Positions 48,255-55,352 of a stretch of 64,000 nt of DNA are shown here, piece after piece. The stretch is from positions 8,375,501 to 8,439,500 of the forward strand of contig NZ_CP108356.1 in assembly GCF_036237315.1 (NCBI RefSeq), given 5' to 3'. This stretch comes from Streptomyces sp. NBC_01351 (GTDB lineage: Bacteria; Actinomycetota; Actinomycetes; Streptomycetales; Streptomycetaceae). The notes beneath the pieces are model-generated. The model searched no databases. It was not told where the DNA came from and worked only from the letters and a program-made list of their open reading frames with translations. The position numbers were made by a program, and so were the translations under genes. Numbering within the stretch: position 1 is the stretch's first letter; the number at the start of each line of letters is the position of its first letter.

Positions 48255-48755
48255 CTGGTACTCGAAGAACCGGGAGCTGGGTAGTGACCAGCCCGTTCAC
48301 CATGGGCGACCGGGTTGTAGGACACGCGCCGCCACCGGGTCGTCGTGGTCACCGAACCCTGCGCGCCTGCCGGCAGGGTCCTGCTGTGCAGCGAGTAAAG
48401 CGGCGCCACTTGGTCCGCCCGCGCCCAGTACCTGCGCACGCTCCCGCTGCTGCGTGGCCCCGTCACCCCGCCGCCCAGACCTCAGCCGTACGACCAAACG
48501 CCGAGTGCCTGGTGATACACAGCAATCCGACGATCGTACGAAAGATGTCCCAGCCCATGCCGGTTTGTTCGGGTATATGAGGGCGCAAAGAGGCGTGGAC
48601 GCGCGTCTTTCAGAAACTTTCGGGGACCGGCTTGCACGATCGGGCGTGTTTTCCGATGGAGTGGTGTTCAGGAGCGCCTGGCGCTCTACGGCTGCCGGAT
48701 CTGGGGGGCAGGTACGCCGGTTACGCACACGCCACTTGGAAGGTTTCACGCCGAC
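48255..48755. other. 500-bp stretch without a confident gene
   Basis: It probably contains the promoter of the coupled sigma-factor operon that starts at 48756. No clear -35/-10 pair, palindrome or conserved ORF was found. Confidence 0.35.
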
Positions 48756-48980
48756 GTGAATGCTGTCGAGATCGTTGCCCTCGTACTGATAGCCGCCACC
48801 GCGGTCCGTGTCTTTGCGCTTGATGTGGTCAGGGTGTGGCGGCGCCTGCCGGGCGCGGGAGTCCGGGCAGGAGCCGCTGAGCTGTCGGCCGGCCACCGCC
48901 GCCCCGCCCGCACGCCCCACCATCGTGAGGTACTCGCCGTCCCCGCGGGCGGCGACGAGCAGCCGTGGGGTGGCACATGA
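48756..48980 (+). CDS. small single-pass membrane protein heading sigma operon
   Basis: 74 residues from GTG 48756: a transmembrane helix right at the N-terminus (MNAVEIVALVLIAATAVRVF) and a basic then Pro/His-rich tail of about 45 residues, probably cytoplasmic. A GGAAGG lies 10-15 bases upstream. Its stop overlaps the ATG of the ECF sigma gene (ATGA), so the two are translationally coupled. That position is typical of anti-sigma factors, but there is no ZAS or other anti-sigma motif, so the role is inference. Confidence 0.55.
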   Translation: MNAVEIVALVLIAATAVRVFALDVVRVWRRLPGAGVRAGAAELSAGHRRPARTPHHREVLAVPAGGDEQPWGGT

Positions 48981-49555
48981 ACGAGGGAGAGTTTGATCCA
49001 TCGGGGGACCAGGCAGTCTCCAGCGAGCTGGCAGGTGTCCTGCCGGTGGACTTCACCGCCTTCCACTCCCAGCAGCACCGCGCGTACCTGCGCTACGCCC
49101 ACCTCCAGCTGGGCAACGCGAAGGACGCCGAAGAGATCGCGGACGACGTGTTCACATTCCTGCTGAAGGTGTGGCCGCAGGCGCTGCGGGAGGCGAGCCT
49201 GCACGCCTTCGCCTGGGCGGCGTTGCGCGAGCACGTCGAGCGCCGCCTGGCCGTCCTGGAGCGACCGGTGGCGATGGTGGAGACGGCGTGGTTCGCGGCG
49301 CTGCGCCGCTCCTCTCGGGAGCGCCTGGAGTTGCTGGAGTCCAAGCTCGGCCTGTACGCGGCGATCGCGGAGCTGTCCGAGCGGCAGTACGACGTGGTGC
49401 TGCTGATGTTCCTGCTGGGCAACAACTGCGACACGGTCGCTCGGATGATGGGGATCGCCCCTGCCACCGTCCGCTCGCACATCCGCGGCGCGCGCCGTGC
49501 CCTGTCCCGCAAGCTCGGGGTGGACTGGATCCCCGGAGAGGAGAAGGACCAGTGA
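48977..49555 (+). CDS. ECF-type RNA polymerase sigma factor
   Basis: 192 residues. Region 2: FTAFHSQQHRAYLRYAHLQL, NAKDAEEIADDVFTFLLKVW. Region 4: AIAELSERQYDVVLLMFLLG and NCDTVARMMGIAPATVRSHI, a classic sigma-70 region 4 HTH with LG replaced by MG. It binds core polymerase and directs it to its own promoters. The start is ATG 48977; the frame also has a GTG 12 bases earlier. It overlaps the gene before it (ATGA) and the gene after it (GTGA), so all three are made in fixed proportion. Not close to a named sigma group that I recognise. Confidence 0.88.
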   Translation: MNEGEFDPSGDQAVSSELAGVLPVDFTAFHSQQHRAYLRYAHLQLGNAKDAEEIADDVFTFLLKVWPQALREASLHAFAWAALREHVERRLAVLERPVAMVETAWFAALRRSSRERLELLESKLGLYAAIAELSERQYDVVLLMFLLGNNCDTVARMMGIAPATVRSHIRGARRALSRKLGVDWIPGEEKDQ

Positions 49556-51303
49556 GCGACATGACCCCTGATGGCGACGTGGCGCTGTGTGAACTGGACG
49601 AGGCCCTGAAGAACGCGGTGGTGCTGGCGGAGGAGTACGCCGGTTACGACGAGTACGCGGCCCGGCGGCGGATCGCCCGCAGGATCGTGGCCGACCGCTC
49701 CCGCTCGGTGGCCGCCGGGCACGGCAGCGTAGGCCTGCCGCTGCCAGGGCAGCAGGTTCCGGCAGCGGGCGACCATCTGGTGCTGGATGCCGCCTGCCAT
49801 GTGCGGGCGGCGAGGGGCCTGGATGAGATGGCCTGGACGCTGGTGGAGAGCAGGGCGTTCGCCGAGCTCGCGCTCGGCGCGGGGACGTGGCCTCACGGGA
49901 TGGAGTCAGCGCTGCTGTTCGCCGGTCTCCTGCACTTGTCCGGGAAGCCGGACGGCGCGCAATTCTGGTTCCAGTACGCGGCCGGTGCCGGATCGCGGGC
50001 GGCCGCCCAGGCTCTCTACCTCCATCACCTCGCCCGCGCCGAGGTCAAAACCGCCCGCCACTGGCAGGACCAGGCCCAGACCCTGCCTCCGGACGAGGAC
50101 CTGCCGCATCTGCCCCAGACTCCGGAGGCCCTGGAGGAGGCCCTCGGCGCCTCCGTCATCTGGACCTCACCTCCGATCACCACCCAGGACCTCGCCGCCC
50201 TTATGGCTCCGGGACGGTCCGCGCAGCGACCGCACTACCGGCTGCCCGCGCGCCTTGGCCGCGCCGCCACCTCCGAGCGTGAGGAGGATGACGACCTGGG
50301 CGAGGTCTTCCTCCCCGGCCCGCAGACCGCGGTCGCCGTCGCTCGGTACGCGCGCCTGAACCCCAAGGAGCTGACCGAGGAGGCCAATCCCTGGGCCTTG
50401 GAGGCCCTGAAGCCGCCACAGCTGACCCGCGCCGCCCGCAGCTCCCCGGAGGAGCGGCCGGCTCAGGTCGCGATGGAATCGGTCCACCGGACCCTGCGCG
50501 TCCTGGAGGTCATCTCCCGTTACTCCGGGGGCGTGAGCATGACGCAGATCGCCCGCGAAACCCACCTCCCTCAACTGGCCCTGGTCCGTGCGATGGAGGC
50601 GCTGATCCGCTCCAATCTGGCCACCCCGGCCGGGCCCGGCGCCTACATCGCCGGACACGCCCTCCTGCTCACCGGAGGCGGTGACGGTGGCGGCCGTCGG
50701 CAGGTCGGGGAGACCCTCGCTTGGGTGCGGGACGCGGTGGGCGCCGCCGTCTACGTCGCCCGCTACACCGAGGGCGAGGTCTCCATCACCCAGTACGCCG
50801 ACAGCCCCGCCGCACCCGTCGTGGAGGAGTGGGTCGACTTCCGCGCAGCCGCCCACGCCTCCGCGGTTGGCAAAGCCCTGCTGATCCAGCTCGACTACAA
50901 CGCTCGCAAGGACCACCTCTCGCGCCACCAGCCCGTCCGCTTCACCCCCCACACGCTCACCAGTCAGGAGACCCTCTTCGACCAGCTCGACACCTGCCAC
51001 CCGAACGCCCCGCTCCTCGACCTCCAGGAATACGCCCTGGGCACCGTCTGCGCGGCCGTCCCGATCGCCTCCGGGCCCAACCCGGAATGCGTCGCCCTGT
51101 CCATGCCCGTCCCCGATCCTCGACGGCTGCGGCAAGCCGCCCGCATCCTGCAGAGCGAAGCCACCGCCGTCCTCCTCGCCCTCATCGTCGCCGGCAGCTC
51201 CGACCCCACCCCGCGCCGGGACATCCCCGGATGCCACGACGGACGGGAAGGGGAGGCCGGTACGGCCGGGTGCGGGAGCGGGGCCCTCTCCACCACCTGG
51301 TAG
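49552..51303 (+). CDS. large regulator with N-terminal helical region and IclR domains
   Basis: 583 residues. Residues 1-280 are helical and TPR/Sel1-like (LDEMAWTLVESRAFAELALG, LLFAGLLHLSGKPDGAQFWF), with no enzyme motif. From about 310 an IclR-type winged helix appears (SVHRTLRVLEVISRYSGGVS, MTQIARETHLPQLALVRAME). It is followed by an IclR effector-binding domain (HASAVGKALLIQLDYNARKD, RFTPHTLTSQETLFDQLD, ALGTVCAAVPI). IclR proteins are normally ~250 residues, so this is an unusual fusion. GTG 49552 overlaps the sigma gene stop with GAGAAGGA upstream. It may sense a ligand and adjust sigma activity, which is inference. Confidence 0.85.
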   Translation: MSDMTPDGDVALCELDEALKNAVVLAEEYAGYDEYAARRRIARRIVADRSRSVAAGHGSVGLPLPGQQVPAAGDHLVLDAACHVRAARGLDEMAWTLVESRAFAELALGAGTWPHGMESALLFAGLLHLSGKPDGAQFWFQYAAGAGSRAAAQALYLHHLARAEVKTARHWQDQAQTLPPDEDLPHLPQTPEALEEALGASVIWTSPPITTQDLAALMAPGRSAQRPHYRLPARLGRAATSEREEDDDLGEVFLPGPQTAVAVARYARLNPKELTEEANPWALEALKPPQLTRAARSSPEERPAQVAMESVHRTLRVLEVISRYSGGVSMTQIARETHLPQLALVRAMEALIRSNLATPAGPGAYIAGHALLLTGGGDGGGRRQVGETLAWVRDAVGAAVYVARYTEGEVSITQYADSPAAPVVEEWVDFRAAAHASAVGKALLIQLDYNARKDHLSRHQPVRFTPHTLTSQETLFDQLDTCHPNAPLLDLQEYALGTVCAAVPIASGPNPECVALSMPVPDPRRLRQAARILQSEATAVLLALIVAGSSDPTPRRDIPGCHDGREGEAGTAGCGSGALSTTW

Positions 51304-51380: not shown

Positions 51381-51459
51381 CGCCGGGTGGAGCAGGTCGG
51401 CAGCTCGCTGGGCTCATAGTCCAGAGGCTGCGTGGTTCAAATCCCGCCCCGGGCCACCA
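51381..51459 (+). tRNA. initiator-tRNA-Met-like sequence (CAT anticodon), probably degenerate
   Basis: The D-stem GAGC/GCTC, an anticodon arm with loop CTCATAG (anticodon CAT) and stem CTGGG/TCCAG, a T-loop TTCAAAT and a terminal CCA at 51457-51459 can be aligned with Streptomyces initiator tRNA (GTGGAGCAG ... GCTCGCTGGGCTCATA). The T-stem has mismatches that one inserted A would repair, and the acceptor stem pairs poorly. It is likely a pseudo-tRNA or a divergent extra copy. A terminator follows directly. Confidence 0.5.
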
Positions 51460-52283: not shown

Positions 52284-52691
52284 ATGGGCGACTGGATCCC
52301 CCGCGAGGATTGGGTGAAGACGCAGCCCCAGGCGCTCGTGGCGTCGTGAGTCATGTTGCTGGACGACCAGGACCGGATGCTTTTGCTGCGGTACGGCCCT
52401 GGTCAGGAGGACGCCAGCGAGACGTGGTGGCTGCCAGGCGGGATGGTCGATGAGGGCGAGAGTCCGTGGCCGGCGGCCCGCCGGGAGATGGGTGAGGAGA
52501 CCGGCATCATGTTGGGCTCGGAACCTTGCTTCATCGGCATCGACCACAGGGCCAACGTCCTCGGCACAGGCCCCGTCGTGGACTACTTCTTCGCCGCGAG
52601 TCTCGCGGCGCACCGTCACACGCTCATCGCGCTTCATGCCGCAGCCCTGTCCGGCCGCGCGGCTTACCTGCAAGAGGGGATGCCCACATGA
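52284..52691 (+). pseudogene. NUDIX hydrolase with in-frame TGA near the start
   Basis: ATG 52284 (AAGGGAG upstream) opens MGDWIPREDWVKTQPQALVA, then TGA at 52347, then the same frame continues VMLLDDQDRMLLLRYGPGQE. The NUDIX box is complete: GGMVDEGESPWPAARREMGE followed by ETGI. Such enzymes hydrolyse nucleoside diphosphates linked to another group. The C-terminus is short after YFFAASLAAHRH. Internal ATG 52353 could still yield the NUDIX core. The stop overlaps the next NUDIX start (ATGA). Confidence 0.75.
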
Positions 52692-53191
52692 GCCGCATCC
52701 GCACAGCCGCGACCGGCCTGGTCGTCCGCGACGGCCCCGTCCTGCTCGTCAAAGGGAACTGGCCTCAGCCGGATACCTGGCTTCCGCCCGGCGGCGGACA
52801 GAAGCTGGGCGAGCCTCTGTACCGCGCTGTCGAGCGGGAGGTGCTGGAGGAGACCGGGGACGGAGGCTGTCGAGGCGGGTCGCCAACGACGAGAAGCCTC
52901 GCCGTGCTGTTCGGCACCAGCCGCACCGCGATACACCGCACCCTCCTGAAGAACCGGCGACTGTCCTGGATCTTCATCCGCGACCCCGACTTCCGTGCCA
53001 AGGCCCAGCGTGTCCTGGACCTGCACGCCCGCACGTTCGAGGGTGCCCCGCTGGGCCCGGACGAGTACGTCCTCTCCAGCGACGAGAAGATCTCCATCCA
53101 GGCCGCTGCCGCTGCCACCCTGTTAGGGCGTGTCTCCTTGGTCGCAGAGGACCTAGGCACTGTTTCTTGGATCATGTGCGGAGCCAGATGA
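52688..53191 (+). pseudogene. second NUDIX gene fused to IS630 transposase fragment
   Basis: ATG 52688, coupled to the first NUDIX stop. Residues 1-58 are a NUDIX N-terminus with most of the box (GGGQKLGEPLYRAVEREVLE, ETGD). From about 52870 the frame becomes part of an IS630-type transposase (WIFIRDPDFRAKAQRVLDLH, ARTFEGAPLGPDEYVLSSDE, with the DDE Asp). At 53124 an IS end (GGCGTGTCTCCTTGGTCG) follows and then the IS5 copy at 53153. It is a chain of three insertions or rearrangements. Confidence 0.75.
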
Positions 53192-54161
53192 TGAGGGCTG
53201 CGAGGGTGACGGTGCCGAGGTAGATGTAGGCGCGTTTCTCGTATCGGGTGGCGACGGCGCGGAAACCCTTGAGCCGGTTGATGGCTCGTTCGACGGTGTT
53301 GCGTTTTTTGTATCGCTCGCTGTCGAAGCCGGTGGGCCGGCCGCCTCGAGACCCGCGGTTCTTGCGGTGTCTTTGCTGGTCGAGACGTTCGGGGATGGTG
53401 TGCCGGATTCCGCGTCGTCGCAGGTAGCGGCGGTTCTTCCGCGATGTGTAGGCCTTGTCCGCCAGGACGTAGTCCGGTCGAGTGCGGGGCCGGCCGACTC
53501 CGGTACGGGGTACGGAGACCTGCTCCATCACCCGCTCGAACTGGGGCCCGTCACCGTAGTGCCCCGGTGTCAGGACGAGGGCGAGAGGCCGGCATCGCCC
53601 GTCCGCGGCGAGGTGGATCTTGGTGGTGAATCCGCCGCGGGAGCGTCCCAGACACTCGCCGATCTGACCACTTCCCCGAGTCGGATCACCAGTTTCCGCA
53701 ACACCGGATCGACCTGGTTCGTCCCCCGAACGTTCCCCTTTGAGGATCGGCGGCCGCCGGTGTCTTCCTCGCGCCGGCGGCGTGCTGGTGGGCCCGCACT
53801 GCTGTCGAGTCCACCGACACGTCCCAGTCGATCCGGCCCGCGGCGTCCTCGGCCGCCTGGATCCGAGACAACAACATCGTCCACGTTCCATCAGCTGACC
53901 AGCGGCGATGACGTTTATAGACCGTCTCCCACGGCCCGAACCGCTCCGGCAGATCCCTCCACTGCACGCCCGTCCGGACCCGGTAGAGCACCCCGTTGAT
54001 CACCCGGCGGTGATCACTCCACCGGCCCCCACGGGCACCGCCAGGAGGCAAGAACGACTCCAGCCGGTCCCACTCTGCGTTCGTCAGATCCCCACGCCCC
54101 ATACGGACAGCCTGACCCCAACACCCCACTCCCGTCAGGAGATCCGAGAAACAGTGCCTAG
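53153..54161. mobile_element. IS5-family element, copy 1 (inverted partner of copy 2)
   Basis: The ends CTAGGCACTGTTTCTTGGAT and, on the complement, CTAGGCACTGTTTCTCGGAT are inverted repeats with CTAG at both tips. Nearly identical to the element at 55584-56593 in opposite orientation; at least one indel and one substitution separate them. Confidence 0.9.
53172..54102 (-). pseudogene. IS5 transposase, copy 1, slippery heptamer lost
   Basis: orfA starts MGRGDLTNAEWDRLESFLPP and has the first Asp in VSVDSTAVRAHQHAAG. orfB has LGRSRGGFTTKIHLAADGR, VLADKAYTS (second Asp) and TVERAINRLKGF (Glu). The junction reads CTC-AAA-GGGG (53735-53741 on the complement). One A is missing relative to copy 2, so the A-AAG-GGG heptamer is gone and the frames differ by +1. 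orfA ends early at RCCGNW, so fusion transposase should not be made. Confidence 0.85.
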
Positions 54162-54234
54162 CTCGGGTTCAAGGTTCCTGGTCCTTCTTGCGATAGTTGT
54201 GCGGCAGCATGACCCGCGTGAAGGGGGGCGTTCC

Positions 54235-54453
54235 ATGACTGTGTGCGCTCAATGCAACTTGGGCAATGTGACGGCATTCCGACTGATCAAAGACGGCCGT
54301 GACCTGTGGGTCTGCCACGAATGTGACGCCGTATGGTTCGGTGAGGACCCGCCCAAAGGTCCTGCGGAAGGCACGCTCTACCAGTACGTTGAGGTTTACG
54401 GAGGCCCGGGTACGCCCACGGACTGGGAGCAGATCGAGGCTGTCGGCAAGTGA
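54235..54453 (+). CDS. small zinc-ribbon protein
   Basis: 72 residues from ATG 54235 with GGGGGG about 6 bases upstream. MTVCAQCNLGNVTAFRLIKD and GRDLWVCHECDAVWF hold two CxxC pairs spaced like a rubredoxin-type zinc ribbon, and an acidic tail follows (TDWEQIEAVGK). Probably a cytoplasmic metal-stabilised adaptor; function unknown. It is the only intact non-IS gene between the inverted IS5 copies, so it is carried like a composite-transposon cargo. Confidence 0.7.
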   Translation: MTVCAQCNLGNVTAFRLIKDGRDLWVCHECDAVWFGEDPPKGPAEGTLYQYVEVYGGPGTPTDWEQIEAVGK

Positions 54454-54510
54454 CCACGAGCAGCCTCTACTTTGAGCGATGATTCTCGACTTTGCCTGGC
54501 CGCGTCCAGA

Positions 54511-55352
54511 TCAGGATTGCGGCGAGGTGGAGTGCGGCTTGGAGGCGATGGCGAGTTTGTCGGTTCGGGTGGCCAGGCCGCGCCACTGCTTGAGGCGGTT
54601 GATGCAGCGTTCGACGGTGTTCCGTTGCTTATAGGTCTCGCGGTCGAAGCCGGGTGGGCGCCCACCGTGACGGCCTCGCCGTTGGCGGTGGCCGATCTGG
54701 TCGGACGGCTGCGGGATGACCGCGCGGATTCCCCGGCGCCGCAGATGGGCCCGGATGGCGCGTGAGGAGTAGGCGCGGTCAGCCAGAACAGTGTTGGGCC
54801 TGGTTCGGGGCCTGCCCGGACCGGTGCGGGGCACGCGGATACGGTCCATCACCGTCTCGAAGGCAGGCGCGTCACCGGCCTGGCCTGCGGTGACGGTGAA
54901 GGCCAGGGGCCGGGCCCGGCCGTCGGATGCCAAGTGGACCTTGGTGCTCAGGCCTCCGCGGGAGCGTCCCAGTGCGTGATCGACTGGCTCCCGGCGTCCC
55001 GCCGCCCCTTTTTGAGTGCTCCGGCCGCGTGCTGATGGGCCCGGACGACGGTTGAGTCGACCGACACGGTCCAGTCGATGTCGTCGGCAGCGTCCGCCGC
55101 GGCCAGGACCGAGGCCAGGATCCGTTCCCAGGTGCCGTCGACGGCCCACCTGACCAGCCGTTTGTGAGCGGTCTGGAACGGACCGAGCTCGCCTGGCAGG
55201 TCACGCCAGGGCGAGTTGGTGCGGTACTTCCAGGCGATGGCTTCCAGGGTGCGACGGTGGTCGGCCCACCGTCGTCCACGGACCGGATCGGCCGGCATCA
55301 GCGGCTCGATCCGGTCCCACATCGCATCAGTGATCACTAATCGGACAGACAC
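54511..55352 (-). pseudogene. IS5-family transposase (different type) with 3' frame change
   Basis: orfA (55352 down to 54948) starts MSVRLVITDAMWDRIEPLMP and carries VSVDSTVVRAHQHAAGALKK. The junction codons AAA-AAG-GGG (55005-55013) form the A-AAG-GGG slippery site. orfB continues LGRSRGGLSTKVHLASDGRA, TVLADRAYSS and TVERCINRLKQWRGLATR. Near 54535 one base is lost, so the family C-terminus (AALHLAAILIWTR) is out of frame. One element end is at 55391 (GCGCGTGTCTCTTTGGTCGG on the complement); the other, near 54465, is not clear. Confidence 0.82.

Follow-up and report, generated by a model that had tools for sequence, protein, structure and literature searches.

The window, a 64,000-nucleotide stretch of DNA from Streptomyces sp. 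NBC_01351, lies at the right end of chromosome contig C1 (8,455,151 bases) and harbors three overlapping genes about 28 kb from that end. The genes encode a microprotein, an ECF-like sigma factor, and a long fusion protein in which a helical half precedes an IclR-type half. The features are as follows.

48633..48663, forward strand: promoter-like bipartite element TGCACGATC-N12-CGATGGAGTG, scoring 20.8 bits with a two-block profile; candidate target of the sigma factor of this module
48756..48980, forward strand: microprotein gene, 74 aa, GTG start; hydrophobic helix, then arginine-rich segment RVF-x(2)-D ... RRLxGAGVRxGAAEL; found at E=9.3e-12 by a profile of 11 microproteins whose modules lack IclR
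48977..48980, forward strand: ATGA in which the microprotein stop and the sigma start overlap, seen in the sequence; 19 of 23 type-A loci keep the frame
48977..49555, forward strand: ECF-like sigma factor gene, 192 aa from ATG, DAEE in region 2.2; Sigma70_r4_2 33.4 bits (cut-off 25.7)
49552..49555, forward strand: GTGA in which the sigma stop and the fusion start overlap, seen in the sequence; kept in most type-A loci
49552..51303, forward strand: fusion gene, 583 aa, GTG start; predicted sigma-partner domain plus IclR module
49552..50421, forward strand: sigma-partner half, aa 1-290; its relatives are found by themselves next to sigma genes; model pLDDT 79
49789..50082, forward strand: predicted Sel1/TPR-like helical repeats inside the partner half, aa 80-177; partner model and weak fold match
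50479..50604, forward strand: IclR-type HTH, aa 310-351; PF09339 22.5 bits (cut-off 22), marginal
50713..51132, forward strand: IclR ligand-binding domain, aa 388-527; PF01614 54.4 bits (cut-off 24)

A check of the window sequence found all three ORFs intact, with both overlaps that an earlier note had described; an alternative start of the sigma gene is the GTG at 48965. The four letters ATGA alone are little proof of translational coupling as they arise automatically whenever the second sigma codon begins with A. What counts is a tiny-ORF start that stays in frame with a sigma-overlapping stop despite a varying distance. Across the type-A loci, the close full-length relatives of the window, the distance from the tiny-ORF start to the sigma start ranges from 86 to 227 nt, and the frame of the conserved start leads into such a stop in all loci except L148, L156, and the broken L059, where it is out of frame, and L152, which has no such overlap. 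The surroundings had been described as a region full of broken genes. In a sample of nine neighboring ORFs, transposase parts are present in three, two being overlapping ORFs with parts of an IS4/5-type transposase, and four have no Pfam match. The NUDIX family accounts for two further ORFs, which lie in overlapping frames, alongside the IS4/5-type transposase parts, at 52353-55352 of the window. A PADLOC search with five proteins gave no defense-system match.

Pfam recognizes the window sigma factor by its region 4 (PF08281), and region 2 yields no PF04542 match at E<=1. Longer ECF models span regions 2 and 4 with scores below their cut-offs; TIGR02937, for example, covers residues 40-184 with 37.6 bits against a cut-off of 42.9. 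The acidic motif DAEE, at residue 54 of the 196-aa reading of the gene, corresponds to the DAED-type motif of ECF region 2.2 described in excerpts of PMC8999054. According to the same excerpts, many ECF sigma factors lack a recognizable anti-sigma factor and their mode of control is unknown (PMC8999054).

The first 300 residues of the fusion have relatives in a set of 54 proteins, the window's own included, most of which align over the entire fusion with 47-75% identity. Some are cut short at one end, such as P0003 and P0038, which stop before the IclR domain; wherever an organism is given, it is Streptomyces or an actinobacterium. Among 150 Streptomyces genomes, type A is present in G039, G042, G134, G071, and G054, with a frameshifted copy also in G054 and a longer fusion relative in G058. 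A scan of named genomes provided 26 loci, 21 with an IclR fusion and 5 with a partner for which no IclR was found in frame, and the sigma gene is directly upstream of the partner gene in every one of the 26 loci fetched. The claim that the three genes form a conserved unit is thus upheld, as the sigma gene lies directly 5' in each full-length relative examined, and homologs of the third gene do not mostly occur without it.

Two further fused types share this layout. Type B is present in the window's own genome at 1.44 Mb and in seven other genomes examined; its sigma factor is 33-36% identical to that of the window, and its fusion of 599-666 aa is joined to the sigma gene by ATGA. Type C consists of the same IclR lineage with a different N-terminal domain and a sigma-like gene in front, and is found on a plasmid-size contig of the same genome and on many plasmids. 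From 45 plasmid records with a match, 18 were fetched, 14 of which have a sigma-like gene directly upstream (one of these, L168, is type A). Nine of these 14 genes are annotated as sigma factors and five are hypothetical with weak matches to ECF models; an annotated small ORF overlaps the sigma gene or lies within 6 nt of it in 8 of the 14 loci. The remaining four plasmid loci comprise two short IclR genes with no adjoining sigma gene and two with an annotation-free gap separating a gene from the IclR part. In the IclR tree, types B and C are well-supported groups and type A is weakly supported (83/51); the fused rows stand apart from a lone 252-aa IclR form at 93/99, a value that is not starred. 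The IclR fusion may have a single origin. A relationship between the type-C N-terminal domain and the type-A partner half was considered and found unsupported (hhalign probability 0.2%).

On two of the plasmids, a second module composed of a small ORF, a sigma gene, and an IclR-free partner lies on the opposite strand beside the type-C trio (L167, 5830-7383; L176, 4080-6117). Contig C2 of the window's genome (232,721 bases) shows mirrored match pairs with coordinates that sum to ~232,722, and looks like one large inverted repeat. A tRNA-Met (cat) gene lies directly 3' of the window trio at 51381-51455 (Rfam 36.4 bits); it has three copies in the arms of the genome that are 91-92% alike (C1:95442, 7942063, and 8074593) and four others at 82-86%. 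The left arm contains a broken fusion relative (L058, C1:92500-100500), with pieces 43-63% identical, that also adjoins a tRNA-Met gene. The type-B pair is located beside metG, encoding methionyl-tRNA synthetase, in eight of eight loci (L055, L060-L066). Because of this adjacency and the tRNA-Met gene behind the trio, control of Met-tRNA charging was considered. It was dropped for type A, since no tRNA gene is present in L054 and L074-L078 or in the 21 named loci L139-L159.

The constant partner of the sigma factor is the helical half of ~290 residues, to which IclR is an added module. The helical half recurs without IclR as a protein of ~240-290 aa, and a sigma gene lies beside this IclR-free partner in 40 of 43 loci, the three exceptions being TPR-type proteins of ~600 aa. 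With or without IclR, the half adjoins a sigma gene in 56 of 59 loci (54 distinct), and at loci from other genera the two are neighbors in nine of ten. TPR-type proteins of ~600-660 aa that are weakly partner-like and have no adjoining sigma match were observed at L124, L131, L132, and L024. The candidate partner family comprises at least 805 clusters at E<=1e-10, and most of the best 120 of these are called 'hypothetical protein' or carry no protein name; the stand-alone partners that were scanned have neither a Pfam match above cut-off nor any NCBIfam match. Modeled alone, the partner half appears Sel1/TPR-like; the fold match is weak, with no Foldseek match at E<=0.001, and a PDB profile search returned only two matches (E 0.22 and 0.58). 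The model of the full-length fusion is too weak to use (mean pLDDT 55), and the Foldseek PDB rows shown for it are IclR proteins. The anti-sigma motif HxxxCxxC is absent from the fusion and from each of the 48 partner rows.

In the usual gene order, an anti-sigma gene follows its sigma gene. The position typical of an anti-sigma gene is therefore taken by the third gene rather than by the tiny ORF, and the suggestion that the tiny ORF sits at the usual anti-sigma place was not borne out. The companion proposal, that an IclR-type protein could replace or assist the anti-sigma factor, is modified in that the part that remains constant is the helical half.

Complete HTH and ligand domains had been claimed for the IclR half; the ligand domain (IclR_C) scores well above its cut-off, but the HTH only marginally so. 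In a search of the whole genome the HTH of the fusion scores 26.5 bits, whereas the top eleven IclR HTH matches score 41.5-70 bits; the domain reaches 16.2 bits in type B and 13.6 bits or no match in two type-C proteins. The weakness of the HTH in all fused types relative to canonical members of the same genome favors sensing over DNA binding, and the domain probably serves dimerization more than DNA binding. Among solved sequences, the nearest to the IclR_C domain is the inducer-binding domain of PobR (PDB sequence match, E=5.6e-9). The 252-aa protein related to the IclR half stands alone: none of 22 such loci, taken with 1.5-kb flanks, has a sigma match below E=1. In several of the loci of this relative (L031-L053) the neighbors include tRNA-Lys and genes that we take to be amino-acid transporter-like.

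Comparison across loci identifies the 74-residue ORF as a real microprotein gene, with a product that matches no known family in Pfam or in longer family models. Stand-alone modules, which lack IclR, carry a small ORF with a common motif. A profile of 11 such ORFs, none of them type A, was run over the loci and the window translated in six frames (18,293 segments). All matches below E=1e-4 end close 5' of a sigma gene, 215 nt away in one case and no more than 70 nt in the others, and outside this setting the best match has E=0.2. A family profile that includes the window (A6) matched 38 of 150 Streptomyces genomes, so the ORF is conserved well beyond its own genome. Thirty A6 loci were fetched; a sigma gene is present in 29 and a sigma gene plus partner downstream in 27, the exceptions being L202, without either, and L191 and L211, without a partner match. 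Among the 17 loci that did not supply rows to the profile (13 did), 16 have the sigma gene and 14 the sigma gene plus partner. In type A the motif is eroding, with 4 of 24 loci (the 23 loci plus L168) below E=1e-4, namely the window, L157, L078, and L168. The microprotein, to which a single TM helix had been ascribed, is strongly hydrophobic in only part of type A, where hydrophobicity ranges from strong (the window, L143, L145, and L158) to none. None of the eight type-B loci matches the microprotein profile, and the type-C small ORFs are partly hydrophobic with no significant match.

Upstream of the microproteins, 34 non-redundant regions were compared. The pair CACG-N16-CGCT occurs in 10 of the 34, versus at most six for any such pair in three shuffles that preserve base composition only. 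With a two-block profile and five-part cross-validation, 19 regions exceed the 95th percentile of 400 control regions and 10 exceed the 99th, percentages that are rough because the profile was seeded with sites picked by eye from the same set and the controls may include element-bearing regions; in about half of the 34 regions the element is weak or missing. The ten best sites read T[GC][AC]AC[GA]TT[TC]-N12/13-CG[ACG]TT[AGT][GT]CTG and lie at -105 to -136. A strict type-A pattern with up to three mismatches is found once in each of five genomes, 5' of the trio, and no further target of this strict form emerged in these genomes; the reversed pattern has one match across all five.

By gene order and family membership, we read the trio in the window as the IclR-sensor version of an unannotated Streptomycetaceae module consisting of a microprotein, an ECF-like sigma factor, and a partner predicted to be Sel1/TPR-like. 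The three genes are encoded together, overlapping or nearly touching, at many loci, and in this lineage the partner bears a fused IclR ligand domain. The overlapping trio suggests an undescribed switching of a sigma factor by a chemical signal. In the account that we hold to be probable, if only slightly so, the partner holds the sigma factor and the ligand of the IclR domain gates it. The partner would bind the sigma factor in the cytoplasm and keep it off RNA polymerase; a small organic, perhaps aromatic, acid on the IclR domain would change the partner and free the sigma factor; and the freed sigma factor would transcribe its own operon from a TGCACGTTT-N12/13-CGMTTNGCTG element, together with further targets. 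The microprotein, hydrophobic and arginine-rich, would most likely act as an accessory at the membrane, tethering or tuning the pair, or else as a translation-coupling leader. The anti-sigma role is proposed on the basis of the position of the partner gene 3' of the sigma gene and of its translational coupling, as for anti-sigma genes. The recurrent pairing of sigma gene and helical half, the intact IclR_C domain, the weak HTH, the microprotein family, and the upstream element count for it; the missing anti-sigma motif, the weak fold match, the erosion of the type-A microprotein, the lack of a significant microprotein match in types B and C, and the weakness or absence of the element in about half of the regions count against it. 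More tentatively, and with less than an even chance in our view, a widespread three-part sigma switch, with a membrane-associated microprotein, may have acquired an IclR domain such that a metabolite controls the sigma factor directly and the microprotein provides a further input. To our knowledge, the IclR ligand domain is otherwise known for controlling DNA binding.

The sign of the partner's action could be reversed, with the TPR/Sel1-like domain needed for sigma activity and the ligand raising that activity. We regard such a positive role as rather unlikely, since a separate, downstream, overlapping gene is the usual anti-sigma layout; it is nevertheless consistent with the partner model, the absence of the anti-sigma motif from every partner row, and the C-terminal TPR extension of ~200 residues in ECF42, reported in excerpts of PMC8999054 as essential for activity. 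Less probable still is that the fusion regulates the operon promoter by binding DNA, as a conventional IclR-type protein would, and leaves the sigma factor untouched: IclR_C is complete and the window HTH is just above its cut-off, but the helical half accompanies sigma genes where no IclR is present, and the HTH is even weaker in types B and C. Location near the chromosome end and near transposase parts, together with the broken relative in the left arm (L058) and the frameshifted copy in another genome (L059), could indicate a decaying remnant of the chromosome arm or a chance overlap without function. This reading is largely refuted, and we give it very little weight, as the trio is found in the same order in many species and on plasmids, and the frames are intact in the window.

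For ECF sigma factors without a recognizable anti-sigma factor, the module provides three things that can be tested in Streptomyces: a candidate family of partners, a family of microproteins, and a candidate promoter. If the IclR domain does gate the sigma factor, it would represent a new wiring of metabolite to sigma factor and might serve as a building block for inducible expression. No description of the module or of an IclR-sigma pair was found in titles and abstracts of open-licence literature, and 'IclR' has 0 occurrences in PMC8999054. Among known systems, ECF42 would resemble the module in that an ECF-type sigma factor works with a domain that, here, is predicted to be TPR-like. In ECF42, however, the TPR extension is part of the sigma chain, whereas here the domain lies in a separate, translationally coupled ORF, the partner can bear an IclR domain, and the sigma gene is preceded by that of a microprotein. 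The soluble, sensor-type anti-sigma factor ChrR, with an N-terminal ZAS domain and a cupin domain, is likewise encoded with its sigma factor and, as would be the case here, is a cytoplasmic partner with a small-molecule-type C-terminal domain (excerpts of PMC8999054); the present module differs in having no ZAS motif, a predicted helical-repeat partner domain, a putative IclR ligand sensor, and an extra microprotein. Members of the IclR family (PobR, PcaR, and IclR) share the IclR_C ligand domain, PobR being the best PDB sequence match, but the fusion has 583 aa versus about 250, a fused sigma-partner domain, a marginal HTH, and a position behind a sigma gene. The module would act much as a ChrR-type soluble sensor does, or as ECF42 split into two chains. 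As the ChrR-type motif and the single-chain build of ECF42 are both absent, we term the module a variant of non-canonical ECF control.
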